From assembly GCA_027492205.1 (NCBI GenBank), contig JAOZFN010000006.1:7369-71368 (forward strand): a DNA stretch of 64,000 nucleotides, written 5' to 3'. The position numbers were made by a program, and so were the translations under genes. This document shows positions 13,291-59,917 of the stretch, one piece after another. A model generated the notes under the pieces. It was not told the DNA's origin and searched no databases. It worked only from the letters and a program-made list of their open reading frames with translations. The stretch comes from Thermoproteota archaeon. Its GTDB lineage: Archaea; Korarchaeota; Korarchaeia; Korarchaeales; Korarchaeaceae. Within the stretch, counting starts at the first letter, position 1; every line of letters begins with the position of its first letter.

Positions 13291-14142
13291 ATGACGCTCA
13301 AGGACTCCCTGTTCTGGCTCAAGCTCTCACTGGCGTCCCTCACGGGCATCATCGCCGGCTTGATAGGCCTATCAGCTACTGAGGGTCTTACGCTCTTCTT
13401 CTTCACGGATGTCTCGGCAGGAACGGCCTTCTTGACCTGGAAGAAGGGGGCCATCTCCGAGGTGGGGATCTACAAGGCGTACAGGGAGTTCTTCATGACG
13501 TCATTCCTCGCGTACTTCCTCTTATGGACCCTGACGCTCAACCTCACAGCGGGCGGCGTGGCCCTGTACCTGGCCGCTCCCACCGCAGGGGTCCAGGAAC
13601 TCAGGCCGATCATCCCATCCGAGAACTTCCCGTACAACGTGCTCTGGATGTTGAACATCACCGACGAGACCTACACGGCGCTCATCGGATCCTGCGCCCC
13701 CCGGTCGGATATGGCTAGGCTGCGGAACCTGACGGCCTCTCTGGGAGGGGGGGGACTAACCCTGAGGACGACGGTCACAGTGCCGCAAGGCAGTTCAGTT
13801 GGTTTAGGCTGGGTGAACGTTACCTACCAGAACGAGACCGTTGCGTTGGACGTGATAGGCCTCGGCAGGCTCACCCTGGGAGTTGGAGAGGAGGTCCCCG
13901 CGGACTTAGGTGGATACCCCCTTGTAGTGGAGTCCCTGAGCGTCGGACTTGGAAGGGTGAACGTCACAATAACCGTTGGGCCGATCCCAGCCGAGACAGC
14001 CAACTTCTCCGCTGAAAAGCTCGGAGCCCTGATCTCCCGCGTCTTAGTGGAGGAAAACAGGTACTGCGTGTTCGAACCCGAGACCAGAACCTTCAAGAGG
14101 ACGCTCAGGATCGGAGACGCGTACGTGGTGGTCAGGGGTTAG
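13291..14142 (+). CDS. membrane protein: N-terminal multi-TM domain resembling EMC6/Rab5IP, fused to about 190-aa ectodomain
   Basis: KLSLASLTGIIAGLIGLSATEGLTLFFF ... FFMTSFLAYFLLWTLTLNL; downstream N-x-S/T-rich soluble part. Family assignment is tentative. Confidence 0.6.
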   Translation: MTLKDSLFWLKLSLASLTGIIAGLIGLSATEGLTLFFFTDVSAGTAFLTWKKGAISEVGIYKAYREFFMTSFLAYFLLWTLTLNLTAGGVALYLAAPTAGVQELRPIIPSENFPYNVLWMLNITDETYTALIGSCAPRSDMARLRNLTASLGGGGLTLRTTVTVPQGSSVGLGWVNVTYQNETVALDVIGLGRLTLGVGEEVPADLGGYPLVVESLSVGLGRVNVTITVGPIPAETANFSAEKLGALISRVLVEENRYCVFEPETRTFKRTLRIGDAYVVVRG

Positions 14143-22938: not shown

Positions 22939-23753
22939 GGCTCCACCACCGCCCCCTCGAGAGCGTCCTTACAGGCGCAGGACCTCTCTTGGGGTATTCT
23001 CTCCACGGCGATCCTGAGCATGGACTTCACGTCCTCTATCCTGCGGGCGAAGACCTCCTTGACCTCGTCGTGGGTGAGCTTGGCCGGGCCGGATACTCCG
23101 GCGGCGTAGTTGGTCACCACGGTCACCGTGGCGTAGCAGGCGGCCACCTCCCTCGCCAGAATGGCCTCGGGGCACCCGGTCATCCCAACGACCGTGCCGC
23201 CCAGCATCCTGAAGGCCCGTATCTCGGCGGGCGTCTCGAACCTATTGCCCTCGGCGCAAACGTACACGCCCCCATCGACCGGATCAAGCCCCAGCTCCCT
23301 TCCGGCCTCCAGGAGGGCGCCCCTCAGCTCCGGGCAGTAGGTGTGCGGAGTCATCGACACGTGGACGACGCCGCCGACGACCCTGTCTCCGATGCGGATT
23401 CTGGTCTTCCCGTCGTAGAAGGTCGTCGGCCGATTCTTGGTGAAGTCGATGAGGTCGTCGGGTATAAGTATCGTGCCCGGGCCATGAGCGGGGTCGAGGG
23501 AGCCCACGGCGTTGGTGGCGAGTATCCTGACGACCCCCAGGGTGCGGAGGGCGAGTATGTTCGCCCTATAGTTGACCATGAAGGGGGGCACCTCGTGCCT
23601 CTCACCATGCCTCGGTATGAACGCGACCTCACTCCCCCCCATCTTGCCGACCGCGACCTTCACCTGACCGAAGGGCGTGTCGACTATCAGCCTCTCAGGA
23701 TCCTCTAGAAGCTCGTAAAACCCGCTGCCGCCTATAATGCCAACTTTGGGCAT
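22935..23753 (-). CDS. S-methyl-5'-thioadenosine phosphorylase
   Basis: VGIIGGSGFYELLEDPE; FIPRHGERHEVPPFMVNYRANI; MTGCPEAILAREVAACYATVTVVTNYAAG. Confidence 0.95.
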   Translation of the reverse strand: MPKVGIIGGSGFYELLEDPERLIVDTPFGQVKVAVGKMGGSEVAFIPRHGERHEVPPFMVNYRANILALRTLGVVRILATNAVGSLDPAHGPGTILIPDDLIDFTKNRPTTFYDGKTRIRIGDRVVGGVVHVSMTPHTYCPELRGALLEAGRELGLDPVDGGVYVCAEGNRFETPAEIRAFRMLGGTVVGMTGCPEAILAREVAACYATVTVVTNYAAGVSGPAKLTHDEVKEVFARRIEDVKSMLRIAVERIPQERSCACKDALEGAVVEP

Positions 23754-23829
23754 TTTGGACGCTCACCCTGCTCCCTATCTAGCTGGCAATATTTTAAATA
23801 GCGGAACGGGTCGCGATTCGACGGATCAG

Positions 23830-23850
23830 GGGACCGCAGCCGAAGGTCCC
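23830..23850 (+). promoter_or_regulatory. leader hairpin GGGACC-N9-GGTCCC upstream of the thermosome gene
   Basis: Perfect 6-bp inverted repeat in a long leader (TATA-like ATTTTAAATA at 23791-23800; SD GGGAGGTGA near 23867). Confidence 0.45.
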
Positions 23851-23880
23851 GATTCAATTGGAACCTGGGAGGTGAACGGA

Positions 23881-25530
23881 TTGGCTCTTGCGACCATAGG
23901 GGGAAGACCCGTCCTCATACTGAAGGAGGGTACCACCCGGACCAGAGGAGAAGAGGCGAGGAGGATCAATATAATGGCGGCTCGGGCCATCTCTGACGCC
24001 ATCAAGACCACCCTCGGCCCCAAGGGAATGGACAAGATGATAGTGGACTCGCTGGGCGACATCACCATCAGCAACGACGGCGCCACGATCTTGGAGGAGA
24101 TGGAGGTCGCGCACCCGGCCGCCAAGATCATGGTCAACCTCGCCAAGGCTCAGGACAAGGAGGTGGGGGACGGCACCACTACCGCGGTCGTCCTAGCTGG
24201 GGAGCTATTGGCCGAGGCGGAGAACCTCCTCAACAAGGATATCCACCCGACAATCATCATAGACGGCTATGAGAGAGCCCTGAGGTTCGTCGAGGGCGAA
24301 CTGGACAAGATCGCCATAGAGGTGGATCCCGACGACTTGGAACTTCTCAAGAAGGTTGCCGAGACCTCTATGAGCAGCAAGCTGGTTAGGGGCGCGAGGA
24401 AGAAGCTGGCCGAAGTCGTTGTCGAGGCCGTCAAGGCCGTTGAGGAGGTGCAGGGCGGAAAGAGGGTCGTGGACGTGGACAACGTGAAGATCATGAAGAA
24501 GAAGGGAGAGAGCCTTGACGAGACCCAGTTCATCAGGGGGGTCGTGCTCGACAAGGAGGTCGTCCACAGGGACATGCCGAAGCTTATCAGGGACGCCAAG
24601 ATTGCCCTCCTGAACCTGTCCCTCGAGGTCAAGAAGCCCGAGATCGACGTTGAGATCCAGATATCCAGCCCAGAGGAGCTGAGGGCCTTCATAGACCAGG
24701 AGACTCAGATCCTCAGGGAGAAGGTGGAGAAGATCGCCGCTACCGGTGCCAACGTGGTCTTCTGCCAGAAGGGCATCGACGAGGTGGCCCAGCACTTCCT
24801 CGCCCAGAAGGGCATAATGGCCGTCCGCAGGGTCAGCGAGAAGGACATGAAGAGGCTCGAGAGAGCCACCGGCGGGAAGATAGTCAACAACCTTGAGGAC
24901 CTCACCGAGGACGAGCTGGGCTACGCGGGACTCGTGGAGGAGAGGAAGATCGGCGAGGATCGCATGGTGTTCGTTGAGGACTGCAAGAACCCCAAGGCCG
25001 TGACCGTCCTCCTGAGGGCCGGCGCGGACACCATCCTCGACGAGGCCGAGAGGGGCCTGAAGGATGCCCTCTACGTGGTTAGGAACGTCGTCGAGGACGG
25101 CAAGGTCTGCTACGGCGGCGGCGCGGTGCAGATCGACCTGGCCAGGAAGCTAAGAGACTACGCCGAGACCGTCGGGGGCAAGGAGCAGCTGGCCATGGAG
25201 GCCTACGCCGCCGCGCTGGAGTCCATCCCGAGGATACTGGCAGAGAACGCTGGCATGGACTCCATAGACGTCCTCGTCAGGCTCAGGCAAGCCCACGCCG
25301 AGGGCAAGGTGTCCTACGGCGTCGACCCCGTCAGGGGAGAGATCGCCGACATGGCCGAGCTGGGCGTCTACGACACCTACAGGGGAGTGAAGAACTCCAT
25401 CTCCTCCGCCACGGAGACAGCGATCCTGATAATCAAGACTGACGACATAATAGCCGCCAAGCCGTACGAGAAGGAAGAGAAGAAGGAGGAGAAGGAGGAG
25501 GAGAAGGAGGAGAGCAAGTTCGAGTTCTGA
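23881..25530 (+). CDS. thermosome subunit (group II chaperonin)
   Basis: [68 protein letters not shown] start after strong SD proposed instead of 23737. Confidence 0.96.
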
Positions 25531-25561: not shown

Positions 25562-26956
25562 TCACCCCTTGTCGGAGAGGTTCCTGTCTCCACCCCGGCG
25601 GAGCGCGCCGGACACCAGCAGGGCAAGCGCCGGCGCGAAGAACGAGTAGAGGTAGGGGTGCACGGGGCCTGACTCAATCCAGACGAGGCTGGCGCTGAGG
25701 AGTATTGGGTAGAGCACCTTCGCAGCGGAGTCTCCCGAGCGAGCCAGCTTGAGCACGCCGCCCGCTATGGCGCCGAGCACTAGGGGAACCGCCGCGACTC
25801 CGACGACGCCGAAGTCTATCCAGATGGGCCCCACCATGGAGGTCGTGTAGGCGACCGGCAGGCCCACGACGGCCTCGCCCGTCAGCGCGCCCACGAGAGG
25901 CCTCGGAATTCCAAGCATGGTCAGCAGAGGGTTAATGAACAGGAGAATTCCGTAGGTCATCCCCCAGGGCGGGTAGGTCTTCAGGATCAGCGTCAGGGAA
26001 TACAGGGTGAAGCCGGCTCTGCTAACGAGGACGTAGTAGGCGTCACCAGTGAGGCCGGCCCTCGCCATGAGTATTACCTTCTGAAAGGTGAACATCAGGA
26101 GGCCGGGGACCGCCAGGTACGCGAGGACCTGCCTGACCTTGACTAGTCCACCCAGCCACATGGCAACGATCAGCGTTCCGAGGGCAACCACCACGTCCAG
26201 CCTGAACCCCGACGGGAACGTGAGGGCGAGGGAAATTCCCATTAGGCCGGCGCAGGCAATAAGGGCGTCCTCCCTTCGAATTGATCCCTTCTGGCCAGCC
26301 GCGGAGGACAACCAAGCAACGAGGGCAGACAGGCCAAGGAGGTACGCGTCGTAGCTGATCATCCAGAATGCGTCGTGCCTTCTCAGCTCTGGGTATAGGA
26401 GGGGAATGGCGCCCAGCCGCAGGTAGTTGACCAAGAGCCCCACGCCACCGGCGATGAGCAGGGGCAGGGAGAAGTGAAGGAGACCCTCGCCCCTCAGCCG
26501 TATGACCGCGCGGCCGGGAACCCTGGAGATCGCAGCCCTAGCGCCCAGCGAGTACGCCGCCACGGCTAAGGTCCACAGCGCGATGCCTGCAACCCACAGC
26601 GTGAGGTCCACTATCGGCAGGGGGCTCACAAGCGCCAGCGCCAGGTAGAGCGCGTAGGCCAGTGGGACGGCCAGCACGGGAGAGGCCGCCCCGTATCTCC
26701 CAGAAGCCACCGCAAGTGTTCTGAGAACGAGGCTCGAGGCCGACGCCTCGACGAGGCGATCGGCGAGTTTGTTGACGAAGGAAAAGGCCCTGCGAAGCGT
26801 GCCCGGAATCCGTGAGATTCTGAGACCTTCGTGGACCTCACAGGCGTGGGCTGTGGGCGCCACGGACGCCAGAATCTCCTCGAGGAACCTGCCGACCGCC
26901 ATCTCAAGCTTGATGAGGATCCTAATGGCTCTCCAGGTTAGGCTCATCGAACCCAC
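25562..26956 (-). CDS. polytopic membrane protein, oligosaccharide repeat-unit polymerase (Wzy-like) candidate
   Basis: Many hydrophobic segments; LRLGAIPLLYPELRRHDAFWMISYDAYLLGLS, FRLDVVVALGTLIVAMW, SRAGFTLYSLTLILKTYPPWGMTYG resemble archaeal O-unit polymerase-like proteins. Confidence 0.5.
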   Translation of the reverse strand: MGSMSLTWRAIRILIKLEMAVGRFLEEILASVAPTAHACEVHEGLRISRIPGTLRRAFSFVNKLADRLVEASASSLVLRTLAVASGRYGAASPVLAVPLAYALYLALALVSPLPIVDLTLWVAGIALWTLAVAAYSLGARAAISRVPGRAVIRLRGEGLLHFSLPLLIAGGVGLLVNYLRLGAIPLLYPELRRHDAFWMISYDAYLLGLSALVAWLSSAAGQKGSIRREDALIACAGLMGISLALTFPSGFRLDVVVALGTLIVAMWLGGLVKVRQVLAYLAVPGLLMFTFQKVILMARAGLTGDAYYVLVSRAGFTLYSLTLILKTYPPWGMTYGILLFINPLLTMLGIPRPLVGALTGEAVVGLPVAYTTSMVGPIWIDFGVVGVAAVPLVLGAIAGGVLKLARSGDSAAKVLYPILLSASLVWIESGPVHPYLYSFFAPALALLVSGALRRGGDRNLSDKG

Positions 26957-26959
26957 CCC

Positions 26960-27865
26960 CTATCCCTTGAACTCGACCATGAACTTGGCGTAGCGGACCC
27001 CTTCCACGGAGGAGACGGCCCCGTATATGGCGGACTTCTCTCCCGGGCTTGGTGGTCTGTCGAAGACCACCTTGACCCGGATGTCATACGCCAGCATCTT
27101 GCGCGCGTCTGCAGGCAGCCATGCCCTCAGGATGGAGTCGAGCTTGGTGAGGTCCTCCCAGTTCATGTTCTCCACGACCAAGTAGAAGGGGGTCACCGTC
27201 GAGCCTACGAAGAGGAAGAGGCCGGAGCACTCCTCATTGACCTCACTCTGTAGCCAGTATATCGGAACCTCGTTCCCCCTTATGGCCTCAGAGAGGCCCC
27301 CACCGTGCAGCTTGAAGGACACGAACAGCTCGTATCCCACGCCGCCACTCGACACGGCGCCGGCGACCTCCCCCACCCTGGAGATCAGGTCATCCAATCC
27401 GTCGGTCCACAGTGGGTCCAGGCTCACCAGCAGCCTGTCTACGTTCCTGTCTACCTTGAGAGCGAGTCTGAGGGGGTCGACCTCCTGCGGAAGCGGGTCC
27501 CTCACCTTCTGGTCGGAGGAGTAGACCAGGAACACGTCTCCCCCCGCGCTGAAGTATATGGTCGCCCTGGCTGAGTCCAGGACGAATCCCGTGGAGTTTA
27601 TCAGCGTTCCATTGACGTGGACGCCGAGTATTCCGCCTCTCAGCGAGTATCCCCTGGACCGGTAGAAGTTGGCTATGTACGCGGCCGACTGGCCGCTCCT
27701 CACGTCTCCCCGGTAGTATAAGTGAGCGTTCACCTTCATGTAGGCGACTCCCACCGCGGCGGTCACGACGAGAATGTCCAGCGCGACCCCCAGGAGTCTC
27801 AACGCCCTATCCGACTCCACGGCCACCTCACCCCTCGCGCCTAACCCTGATCCCCTCAGCCCCAA
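26960..27865 (-). CDS. bitopic membrane protein with ectodomain (paralog B)
   Basis: Single N-terminal TM VALDILVVTAAVGVAYMKV followed by about 250 aa soluble domain. Confidence 0.6.
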   Translation of the reverse strand: MGLRGSGLGARGEVAVESDRALRLLGVALDILVVTAAVGVAYMKVNAHLYYRGDVRSGQSAAYIANFYRSRGYSLRGGILGVHVNGTLINSTGFVLDSARATIYFSAGGDVFLVYSSDQKVRDPLPQEVDPLRLALKVDRNVDRLLVSLDPLWTDGLDDLISRVGEVAGAVSSGGVGYELFVSFKLHGGGLSEAIRGNEVPIYWLQSEVNEECSGLFLFVGSTVTPFYLVVENMNWEDLTKLDSILRAWLPADARKMLAYDIRVKVVFDRPPSPGEKSAIYGAVSSVEGVRYAKFMVEFKG

Positions 27866-28655
27866 TCTCCCGCAGAGAACCTCCGACGGCGTCTGCGTCC
27901 ACCCTCACGGGATCTGTGAGTACGGTAAGCTGGATTGGTCCCGAGATTAATCCCTTCACGGCGACCCCCTCTCTCTCGAGTATCTCAATGATCCTTCTGA
28001 GCAGGGTGGAGGAGTCTTCGGCTGGCACGAATCTCATCTTGACGAGGATCTCATTCCCAGCCGTCTCGACTTCTATGACCCCCCCCTGCCCGGCAGCCAC
28101 GTCCTGAATCAGGCTGGCCGGGATCGTCACGTTGGACTCCTCCATCCATACCCCGACCGTAGCCGACACGAGGCAGGCTTCAACGCCCTCGAAGCGCTCG
28201 AGGATCGTGCAGAGCGACTCTAGGGAGTCCGGTCCTATGGTTTCACTCGGGACTATGGCGTCGATCCTGACCACACCGCTGGGCTGCTCTATTCTCATGA
28301 GTATTCTGCTGGGAACTCCGTTGACGTAGGGCCTGTCGAACTCGTCCGACAGCACTAAGACCCCCCTCTGGGGGTCGAAGAGGACCAGCCTCTTGCTGTC
28401 CGCGTACACGACTCTCCCAATCGCTTTGAATGATCCTCCCGCGTACCAGGCCCCCTCGACCTCGAGTTCCACGGCGTACCCGCGAGATGCCGAGCTGTGA
28501 TAAGTGGCGGCTATGCCCACCATGTTGGCGCCCCGGATGTCGAAGTACCTGTCCCTGGGGGTGACGGCCGCGTAGGCCACCCCGACGGCGACGGACAGAA
28601 CCACCATGTCCAGGGCCAGCCCGAGCGCTCGCCTCTTCGCCCCACCCTCAACCAA
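27828..28655 (-). CDS. bitopic membrane protein with ectodomain (paralog A)
   Basis: TM LALDMVVLSVAVGVAYAAV, near-identical in pattern to the downstream gene. Confidence 0.6.
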   Translation of the reverse strand: MVEGGAKRRALGLALDMVVLSVAVGVAYAAVTPRDRYFDIRGANMVGIAATYHSSASRGYAVELEVEGAWYAGGSFKAIGRVVYADSKRLVLFDPQRGVLVLSDEFDRPYVNGVPSRILMRIEQPSGVVRIDAIVPSETIGPDSLESLCTILERFEGVEACLVSATVGVWMEESNVTIPASLIQDVAAGQGGVIEVETAGNEILVKMRFVPAEDSSTLLRRIIEILEREGVAVKGLISGPIQLTVLTDPVRVDADAVGGSLREIGAEGIRVRREG

Positions 28656-28742
28656 CGCCTCAACCCTCCATTCAGTCGAGCCTTCGCCAGCGGTATGCTT
28701 ATTTAACCGAGGGTAGGCTGGGACCGGGGAGGTCGTGGATCA

Positions 28743-29150
28743 GTGCCGCACTACTACCACGGACCCGTGGCCACCCGCGGAAGAACCCCGACGGGAGGGA
28801 AGATCCGGAAGACTCGCAAGAAGAGGAAGAGGGAGATGGGCAGGTTCCCGGCTCTCACGAGGATAGGAGAGAGGAGACTGAAGCTCATCAGGGCGATGGG
28901 AGGGAACTACAAGCTGAGGCTGCTGAGCGACAGCTACGCTAACGTCGTTGTGCCGGGAGAGGGTGCGAAGAGGGTCAGGATCTTGGACGTGGTGGACAAC
29001 CCGGCGAGCAAGGCCTTCAAGAGGTTCAAGATCATAACTCGCGGGGCGATCATCAGGACCGAGCTGGGCCTGGCCAGAGTGACCTCCAGCCCGGGGCAGC
29101 ACGGCGTGATAAACGCCGTCCTGATGGAGGAGGAGCAGTCTGCCTCGTGA
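28743..29150 (+). CDS. rps8e: ribosomal protein eS8 (GTG start)
   Basis: [94 protein letters not shown]. Confidence 0.96.
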
Positions 29151-29466
29151 GCGGAGATCACCCCCGCCACCTCTCGACAGGGCCCGCCTGAGGCCCATCG
29201 GGGTCGTCGAGAGGGTCACGAACTCGCGAAACTTCCTTGTTAGGTATGGAGGACCCGTGGAGTATGATCCCAAGGATCTTAAAGTCGTAGACGAGGAACT
29301 CCGGGTGGTCGGCGTGGTTCGAGACGTGATCGGCCCGGTTTCCGCGCCGTTCTTCCTGGTCAAAGTGACGATTCCCATCGATGAGGCCAAGGGCTACGTG
29401 GGCAGGAGGCTCTACCTCTTGGAGCCGCCGAGCATTTTGGCAAGGAAATTAAGGAACAGCGGATAG
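29140..29466 (+). CDS. gar1: Gar1-like H/ACA RNP protein (5' end uncertain)
   Basis: [61 protein letters not shown]; frame is open upstream of the listed GTG 29257; candidate CTG at 29140 after GGAGGAGGAG. Confidence 0.75.
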
Positions 29467-57241: not shown

Positions 57242-59917
57242 ATGAACTGGAGAAAGGCAGCCTTCGCTGCCCTGCTGGCCGTTCTAGTGGGAGTCTCTGT
57301 GCTCCCGCTGACGGCTTCGCCTCTGATAAGGGAGTTCCCGAAGCCATTCGTGCAGGATGGCACCATAGACTACGATGGAGACGGAGTGCCTGACATAGCC
57401 ATTATAATCGGAGGGCAGAAGCCGGGTCTCGCAGCCGCAGCCGAAGACGTCAGGGGAGCGACCCTGATAGGAACTAAGATAGGTTCCCACCTCTACTACA
57501 CGAAGGCGCCGAACACCAAGGGTACTGACTACTGGATCGAGGAACTCACCGCCGACGTGTGGCACTACACCTACAAGAGGTGGAGCTGGGGCGGCTCCAA
57601 CGCAGACGAGGGGCTGTGGTTCCGCTTTGGCGACGGAGTCACCTACCCACCGTTCAGCAACACCTACCCCAACCAGTTTGCTTATCCGCTTGATACCGAC
57701 ACGTTCGCACCCGACTACCTGCTGGTGGCCACCGAGTACGTGAACGAGACCATTGAGGAGGTTCCTATCTGTCCTGGCTGCCCCAACTTTGGAGTCAACA
57801 AGTGCGAGGCCCCCGTGCTCGTGTACAGCGTTGGATACGCCCTCACCGGTGATGACAAGAAGACTCTCGGCGACAACGTCCTCTTCGCTGACCTCATGGA
57901 GAATGGCGGAGCTACGTGGATAATCACCGGTTACGACCCTGCCGACTATCCTGGCTATGCTGGCCCGCTTGGCGGCGCTGTCTATGTCTACTACAACGAT
58001 GGGTTCAACTCTACTGCGGGTTCGGGGAGCACTATAGGGGCTGAGGACATCTTCAGCGGCAAGACACAGAACTACACGCTTAACAAACCGGGCTTCGCCA
58101 TGCTGTTCAGCACAACTCCCGTGGGCACCGCCATCCTCGAGGAGGGCAAGGAGTACTACGTCCCCTTCCTGGGGTACTGGATAGAGGTGGACGATATAAC
58201 CCCGGAGAACGCTTCATTCATAGTCAGGGAATCTGAGGGCGGGCCAATCAAAACCATGCTCAATCTTGAGTACAGCACAGACTCGGAAGGCAATGTGAAC
58301 AAGCTATTCATATATCTAAATGACCTCGCGGAGAACAGGCTCGAGGGAGCAGGCTACAACATGGTATTCTTCCTCTACATATACAGGATCGACACCGACG
58401 ACGACTACATGGAGGTCATGCTTAGCAGCCCGTGGATCGACAAGCACATCTTCGAGAGGATCGACCTCGACGACGACGGCGTGGTCGACATCACAGACCT
58501 CGAGTACTCATGGCCAGCCGACGCGCCGGTAAGCGCCTTTGACTGGTGGATTGAGGAAGGTTACTTCGTTGGCTACGTCATCATAAACGGCTCCGACATG
58601 GGTCCGTTCTCAGTGAAGATGGATCCGTGGGACAAGCTGCCTTACGATCACATCTATGGCATCGTGAGCTACACCTACCCAGGCGACGACAGCATCTACT
58701 GGTATGTGATACCCGAGAACGGCACTTGGCACCTAGGCGAGAAGAAGACCTACGGCAGCAATGAGTTCATCTTCGATAACAAGGAGGTCTTCGAGGCCTA
58801 TGACGATGGAACCGCCGATTGCGGATCCCCCGACTGCTTGGCGAGGTCCGACTTCGGCGTCTTCCTCTACGATGAGGGCAACGTTGACATAGAGACCGAG
58901 GTCTGCAAGTGGACTGACGCCCTGACCTACCTCATGGTGAACGAGGCCTACGAGATCAATCAGACCCTTGACGACTTCACATACGGCGTCGATTCAGCGG
59001 TGGCCCTCTACGAGCTCCACGAGATATTCCCCATCAACGTGACTGGCGTCTTCGCGGGTGTCTACGATAGGTTCGAGAACATCACCGGCAACTGGACTGG
59101 CACCACCCTCCTCGACGAGTACTATAGAGATATAACGCCCGCCAGCGAGAAGAACCAGATCTTCGAGCTCGAGGATGTCTTCAGCTTCGTTAAGGCGCCT
59201 CTCGTCTGGCTCGACTATCAGTTCCTTGACGAGAACTACCAGTTGGCCGACAAGGCTGAGGAGGCAGGCCTCCCGAACAAGAACCTGATACTTGTAGGTG
59301 GTCCGGTGGTTAACAGAGTCGTTGACTATTTGAACGACAGCGGCTTGCTGTGGATAGTCTACGTCGGTGATAGACTCTACGACACTAGATTCACACTTGT
59401 GACGAGTAAAAATCAGATAAAGAATGGCTCGTTTGGAGACATAGTTGTAGGGGGACAGATCCAGGAGGATGGTTACTTAGACCTTTCCAAGGTAAGTATA
59501 ATGGTAGGTGCACCCACCGCGTCCTTCATTGGCGGCTTAGGAGTCATCCAGTATGCCAAGGATGATCCATGGGGTGAGGAGATGGGATACAAGGAGAATT
59601 ACATTCTCGTCGTAGCTGGTAACAATAGGTATGGTACCTACGCGGCGGCCGTGACTCTAGCCGACCCAACTAAGATAGTCAGGGTGCCGACAGATATCCC
59701 CATGACTTACTACCTCGCAGGGAATGACACTGAGTACAAGGTAGAGCCTAACCAGATCGTAGCTCCAGAGCATCCCCCCGCCGTAATAGTAGTTGCTCTG
59801 CTGCCTGGATACAAGATGGCGATGGGGTACTCTCCGCCTACAAGATACAACATCGTTGAAATCACTTGGCCGACGCCGGTCACTTTCGAGCCTGTTTTCA
59901 CTCCGGCCGGAGGGTGA
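57242..59917 (+). CDS. S-layer-like secreted protein
   Basis: Signal peptide, FPKPFVQDGTIDYDGDGVPDIAIIIGG N-terminal motif like archaeal S-layer proteins, acidic, many N-x-S/T, strong SD, no C-terminal TM. Confidence 0.8.
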   Translation: MNWRKAAFAALLAVLVGVSVLPLTASPLIREFPKPFVQDGTIDYDGDGVPDIAIIIGGQKPGLAAAAEDVRGATLIGTKIGSHLYYTKAPNTKGTDYWIEELTADVWHYTYKRWSWGGSNADEGLWFRFGDGVTYPPFSNTYPNQFAYPLDTDTFAPDYLLVATEYVNETIEEVPICPGCPNFGVNKCEAPVLVYSVGYALTGDDKKTLGDNVLFADLMENGGATWIITGYDPADYPGYAGPLGGAVYVYYNDGFNSTAGSGSTIGAEDIFSGKTQNYTLNKPGFAMLFSTTPVGTAILEEGKEYYVPFLGYWIEVDDITPENASFIVRESEGGPIKTMLNLEYSTDSEGNVNKLFIYLNDLAENRLEGAGYNMVFFLYIYRIDTDDDYMEVMLSSPWIDKHIFERIDLDDDGVVDITDLEYSWPADAPVSAFDWWIEEGYFVGYVIINGSDMGPFSVKMDPWDKLPYDHIYGIVSYTYPGDDSIYWYVIPENGTWHLGEKKTYGSNEFIFDNKEVFEAYDDGTADCGSPDCLARSDFGVFLYDEGNVDIETEVCKWTDALTYLMVNEAYEINQTLDDFTYGVDSAVALYELHEIFPINVTGVFAGVYDRFENITGNWTGTTLLDEYYRDITPASEKNQIFELEDVFSFVKAPLVWLDYQFLDENYQLADKAEEAGLPNKNLILVGGPVVNRVVDYLNDSGLLWIVYVGDRLYDTRFTLVTSKNQIKNGSFGDIVVGGQIQEDGYLDLSKVSIMVGAPTASFIGGLGVIQYAKDDPWGEEMGYKENYILVVAGNNRYGTYAAAVTLADPTKIVRVPTDIPMTYYLAGNDTEYKVEPNQIVAPEHPPAVIVVALLPGYKMAMGYSPPTRYNIVEITWPTPVTFEPVFTPAGG

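Follow-up and report, generated by a model that had tools for sequence, protein, structure and literature searches.

The three-gene cassette at 25562..28655 of the window, the 64,000-nucleotide stretch of Korarchaeota DNA analysed here, is in our best reading a diverged, partner-duplicated form of an archaeal glycan-assembly module predicted in 2015, with its polytopic protein Pol acting as the polymerase. We put the probability of this reading at roughly 0.6. In the original prediction, Makarova, Galperin and Koonin assigned PF01901 paralogs (arCOG03206) and arCOG03414, a secreted or membrane-anchored protein with a TrmB-like domain, to a glycan-assembly pathway. The gene set was described from euryarchaea and Korarchaeum, often near PMT glycosyltransferases, and HHpred pointed arCOG03206 to Wzy (PMC5898192). 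Beyond this prediction, we find that the bitopic gene is duplicated in three genera, with both copies apparently devoid of the TrmB sugar-contact motif, that B1, B2 and Pol have become far more divergent than the adjoining genes with the locus kept, and that the window's genus has lost the second Wzy paralog. The glycan pathway itself gains new support from the locus of another Korarchaeota genome, G024.

Organization of the cassette

The cassette and its surroundings comprise the following features.

27828..28655, minus strand: B1, first bitopic protein, 275 aa, TTG start
26960..27820, minus strand: B2, second bitopic protein, 286 aa from GTG 27820; the first-listed ORF start is TTG 27865
25562..26956, minus strand: Pol (W1), polytopic PF01901 Wzy-like protein, 464 aa; 461 aa from ATG 26947
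28563..28619, minus strand: TM helix of B1, residues 13-31, by hydropathy; helix 3-31 in the AF2 model
28287..28547, minus strand: TrmB-like region of B1, about residues 37-123 (helix, then beta strands), from AF2 secondary structure and Foldseek; exact span estimated
28656..28742, minus strand: divergent intergenic region of 87 bp upstream of B1, read by eye
23737..25530, plus strand: thermosome subunit gene, convergent with Pol; conserved cassette flank in most Korarchaeota loci read
28743..29150, plus strand: eS8-like ribosomal protein gene, named from sequence; the other conserved flank, in the same gene order

An earlier note, made from the sequence alone, had described three minus-strand genes in a tight run, and open reading frames are indeed present at these coordinates. 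The overlap that it reported between the first two genes exists with TTG 27865 as the start of B2 and vanishes with GTG 27826 or GTG 27820, the alternative starts preceded by GAGGTGG. Likewise, Pol may start at ATG 26947, with GGGGGTGG upstream of it, rather than at GTG 26956. The region upstream of B1 contains a putative TATA-like element, TTAAATAA (approximately 28706-28699), and a candidate GGAGGG motif (28669-28664).

Conservation of the trio in related genomes had been named as a check, and the order B1, B2, Pol recurs in five other Korarchaeota genomes (G001, G004, G005, G008 and G010). Compared with G001, dN/dS of the cassette genes is 0.23-0.34, a value derived from few substitutions, which indicates a probable continuing constraint on these genes within the window's genus.

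Gene order and distribution

The survey covered 29 Korarchaeota genomes and 152 genomes in the phylum of G030 (methanogen-like). We denote the counterpart of Pol as W1 and the second PF01901 gene as W2. The usual Korarchaeota order is an MTAP-like gene, thermosome, one or two bitopic genes, W1, W2, eS8, SRP19 and GAR1, and most of the loci read show the succession thermosome, bitopic, Wzy-like, eS8. In the window and in G004 the block of bitopic genes and W1 is inverted. It is true that the cassette sits alone between housekeeping genes, as first noticed, with thermosome and eS8 as its flanks and no recognisable glycosyltransferase beside it; this position is an ancient fixed arrangement and not an oddity.

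Two further observations concern the locus. Other Korarchaeota loci have SRP19 between eS8 and GAR1; at the window locus (29150-29257) this gene is missing, and a search of the entire window genome (96% complete) gave no SRP19 match. At L042:8140-10802 the thermosome gene leads directly into eS8 without a cassette; this thermosome locus is 58-64% identical to the others, and it is possibly an empty site.

The bitopic profile finds members in all 29 Korarchaeota genomes, usually with one copy per genome. Two copies occur in three genera, namely the window's genus, g4 and g5, while the two matches in G022 resemble fragments at contig ends. W1 directly adjoins the bitopic gene in every genome where this could be judged (28 out of 28); the remaining genome, G028, is outside the count because its contig ends just downstream of the bitopic gene. 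A profile made without B1 and B2 also finds bitopic proteins in 31 of the 152 methanogen-like genomes, and a PF01901-type gene adjoins the bitopic gene in 12 out of 12 methanogen loci scanned.

Many Korarchaeota encode the two PF01901 paralogs W1 and W2 side by side. W2 is absent from the window genome and from G001, i.e., from the window's genus. The window genome carries a second PF01901 gene on another contig (G000:C4:110856-111362); examined as a candidate for the missing W2, it proved to be a different gene. It is convergent with a PAP2-type phosphatase-like gene and lies near AlaX-like and sugar ABC-ATPase genes.

The combination of a PF01901 gene (arCOG03206/COG1822) with an adjacent gene for a membrane-anchored or secreted TrmB-like protein is in good agreement with the 2015 operon (PMC5898192), and from description and context we infer that the bitopic proteins correspond to arCOG03414. 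While that operon typically contains a pair of PF01901 paralogs with a single TrmB-like gene, in the window a single PF01901 gene is accompanied by two diverged bitopic genes.

Glycan genes in the genomes

The bitopic gene and W1 of G024 precede genes for PMT_2, a D-glucuronyl C5-epimerase on the opposite strand, and STT3/AglB, which suggests a putative uronic-acid-containing surface glycan. All of these genes, the bitopic gene and W1 included, lie in one stretch, L153:5176-12504. The epimerase occurs in 19 of the 29 Korarchaeota genomes; it was not found in the window's genome and is thus ruled out as a required partner.

An AglB gene lies on the contig that contains the window, and the window genome encodes five family-2 glycosyltransferases. 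Across the Korarchaeota, AglB is present in 27 of 29 genomes and the S-layer domain PF05124 in 29 of 29; since universal genes co-occur trivially, these figures show only that substrate and acceptor are available. Within the window, the plus-strand gene at 57242-59917 encodes a large secreted protein matching PF05124 S_layer_C (E=1.1e-23), which is likely an S-layer protein and possibly a glycan acceptor. Another plus-strand gene, at 13291-14142, encodes a protein whose N-terminal part is similar to EMC6 (PF07019, E=1.8e-6); an ectodomain-like region comes after it.

The gene order could also be read as a sign of a membrane stress or protein-folding complex that is tied to the thermosome and has nothing to do with glycans, given that cassette and thermosome gene are immediate neighbours, the cassette often following on the same strand at a distance of about 10 bp. 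We regard this as very improbable. Methanogen copies are not next to the thermosome, the G024 pair lies among glycan genes instead, and a cytosolic chaperonin offers no reason for an extracellular domain of the sugar-binding type. A thermosome-linked function was therefore rejected on account of the methanogens and G024, where the linkage does not exist.

The bitopic proteins B1 and B2

According to hydropathy, B1 and B2 each have a single N-terminal TM segment and an ectodomain of approximately 250 residues. A weak second hydrophobic segment of B2 is internal (198-216), not C-terminal. The common N-terminal TM pattern seen at first reading is confirmed: the segments are LALDMVVLSVAVGVAYAAV in B1 and LLGVALDILVVTAAVGVAY in B2, with a Kyte-Doolittle score of 2.2. 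The similarity exceeds chance and extends well past the TM segment, as blastp (E=0.002 over 118 aa), a comparison of B1-family and B2-family profiles (E=8.6e-7 over 213 columns) and cross-HMM searches demonstrate. In the latter, an HMM built from B2 proteins only detects the window B1 (9e-7) and one built from B1 proteins only detects the window B2 (4e-6), with no shuffled control better than 0.1. On these matches, B1 and B2 are true paralogs.

An HMM of TrmB-positive single-copy bitopics, which is independent of B1 and B2, matches the window B1 with E=4e-7 and the window B2 with E=0.37, so that B2 is linked to the single-copy family only via B1 and synteny. In the tree of bitopic proteins, B1, B2, the single-copy and the methanogen proteins form four supported groups, and the simplest reading would be one duplication before g1, g4 and g5 separated. 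Conserved adjacency, tree and copy count together bear out the idea that the bitopic proteins are duplicated partners of Pol.

That idea had originally been framed by analogy with bacterial chain-length regulators. Taken literally, it would make B1 and B2 a Wzz-like polysaccharide co-polymerase pair working with a Wzy polymerase, and the tandem of a polytopic enzyme with membrane-anchored ectodomain proteins, in conserved adjacency, does resemble such a system. In Wzz co-polymerases, however, two TM helices flank the ectodomain, whereas B1 and B2 have one TM helix each and none at the C-terminus. Domain searches gave no Wzz family match for either protein, and the predicted fold is TrmB-like and ferredoxin-like, with no PCP structure among the best 50 Foldseek matches listed. 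We consider a Wzz identity highly unlikely, and TM count and predicted fold led us to reject it.

The AlphaFold model of B1 (pLDDT 79.5, pTM 0.71) consists of a TM helix, a helix plus beta domain and a ferredoxin-type alpha/beta part. Foldseek matches it to the sugar-binding domain of TrmB in 3qph and 2f5t (probability 1.00, E-values of 2.6e-3 and 1.6e-2, approximately 95 columns) and also returns a designed ferredoxin-ferredoxin protein. The TrmB effector domain, PF11495, is matched above cut-off by the single-copy bitopics of G024, G025, G026, G028 and G007, with E-values down to 1.5e-9; in the Pfam search neither B1 nor B2 of the window reaches it. PDB sequence profiles of the bitopics or of the TrmB-like region did not find TrmB, and the basis of the link is consequently Pfam, Foldseek and the HHpred result of the 2015 paper.

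In TrmB, Gly320 and Glu326 contact the sugar, and both positions are kept among TrmB relatives (PMC4158304). G111 and E117 are invariant in 11 single-copy bitopics and show the same spacing (Gly-x5-Glu); located at the corresponding end of the Pfam model, they would be the equivalents of these two residues. The likeness to the TrmB effector domain (PDB 2F5T, 3QPH) thus consists of a beta domain with Gly-x5-Glu in the single-copy Korarchaeota proteins and of the Foldseek match of B1. The setting is another one: TrmB regulates transcription in the cytosol and has a DNA-binding domain, whereas the bitopics carry the domain outside the membrane behind one TM helix. Unlike TrmB and the single-copy partner, B1 and B2 appear from the alignments to have lost the motif. 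In the methanogen bitopics, inspected by eye, the Glu is not kept. Sugar binding by B1 and B2 is doubtful, because PF11495 is not reached and the Gly/Glu pair is apparently lost.

The polytopic protein Pol

Pol matches PF01901, "putative O-antigen polymerase", over residues 97-440 with E=7.7e-27 and 94.9 bits (cut-off 24.2), and an NCBIfam model for oligosaccharide repeat unit polymerases below cut-off. At the family level, its initial description as a Wzy-like polytopic protein is therefore correct. In an alignment of ten Korarchaeota and five methanogen homologs, R192, R252, R313, T317, R352, T371, D381 and E428 are identical in 15 out of 15 sequences. Six of these are charged (R192, R252, R313, R352, D381 and E428), and Pol keeps every residue that is invariant across the 15 homologs. 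In bacterial GT-C1 polymerases, conserved arginines serve diphosphate binding and a conserved Asp/Glu acceptor activation (PMC10920833). Pol is alike in being polytopic, in its conserved Arg and Asp/Glu residues and in the position of several of them in a loop-rich region near the C-terminus, as in Wzy, GT-C1 and WaaL (PMC10920833), and by this analogy it looks catalytically intact. The AlphaFold model of Pol, made from a 9-row alignment, is too poor for fold comparison (pLDDT 53.8, pTM 0.50; best Foldseek E=0.35). The literature found under the arCOG, COG and Pfam identifiers of the family, namely the 2015 paper and a study of bacterial serotypes, describes no activity of an archaeal PF01901 protein. 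We know of no TrmB-like partner in the bacterial Wzy, GT-C1 or WaaL systems.

The polymerase role is the best reading of these data, and next to it comes a ligase or single-step GT-C-type transferase, comparable to WaaL or PMT-like enzymes. Pol would then move a finished glycan from one lipid to another or to protein, with the bitopic proteins presenting the acceptor. PF01901 has its name from distant similarity only, the fold and the Arg/acid pattern are common to Wzy, WaaL and SEDS enzymes, and the neighbouring W1 and W2 could be a polymerase and a ligase. We nevertheless judge this role unlikely: a dedicated protein-glycan transferase, AglB, is already present, and the published HHpred result for the family favours Wzy. 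Moreover, W2 is missing in the window genome, and therefore one PF01901 paralog must suffice there.

Divergence and origin of the block

Between the window and genus g3, the thermosome is 80% identical, Pol 19%, and B1 and B2 16-18% relative to the g3 bitopics. For comparison, g2 and g3 share 72% in the thermosome, 40% in W1 and approximately 47% in the bitopic protein. Since all three cassette proteins show low identity next to a conserved thermosome, B1, B2 and Pol have changed together. Either fast evolution or replacement in place may account for the joint change.

Replacement would mean that a distant version of B1, B2 and Pol was transferred in and took the place of the local Korarchaeota cassette. 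This concerns the origin only and is compatible with the polymerase reading. Pol is 16-23% identical both to other Korarchaeota W1 and to methanogen W1, two sets that are 22-28% identical to each other, and the thermosome has meanwhile retained the similarity to g3 given above. In midpoint-rooted trees, B1 plus B2 and Pol are each placed outside the other Korarchaeota plus methanogens, although long branches could mimic such a placement. The same chromosomal slot was kept, the window B1 is still matched by the Korarchaeota single-copy HMM, and no closer outside relative appeared among the genomes searched. We consider replacement a tentative option, less probable than its absence.

Proposed mode of action and significance

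Under the polymerase reading, Pol would most likely pass the growing chain from one lipid-linked oligosaccharide to another at the outer face of the membrane. Its conserved arginines would serve to bind the lipid diphosphate and an acidic residue, likewise conserved, to activate the acceptor. B1 and B2, each anchored by one helix with the ectodomain outside, would most likely associate with Pol as well as with the nascent glycan, and govern chain length, the choice of acceptor or the transfer to AglB and the S-layer. What the data show directly is homology, adjacency, presence throughout the phylum, conservation of residues and joint divergence; polymerase activity, the substrate, the complex and the role of the partners are what we infer from them.

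A more far-reaching proposal, which we regard as rather doubtful, is that bitopic protein and PF01901 protein form a dedicated archaeal polymerase complex with the TrmB-related extracellular domain as its glycan-sensing subunit. In the window's lineage, this subunit would have been duplicated to B1 and B2, would have lost the old contact residues and would have changed along with the polymerase, giving rise to a new machine with two partners that serves another surface glycan.

Korarchaeota are essentially uncultured, and to our knowledge no enzymes have been described for their surface glycans. Since the module occurs in every Korarchaeota genome searched and is shared with methanogens, it is a strong candidate for a core step of the envelope. 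It becomes testable through MMP1111 of M. maripaludis, a relative from a methanogen that has been named as a typical family member, and the duplicated variant offers a natural experiment to learn which regions of the partner are important.
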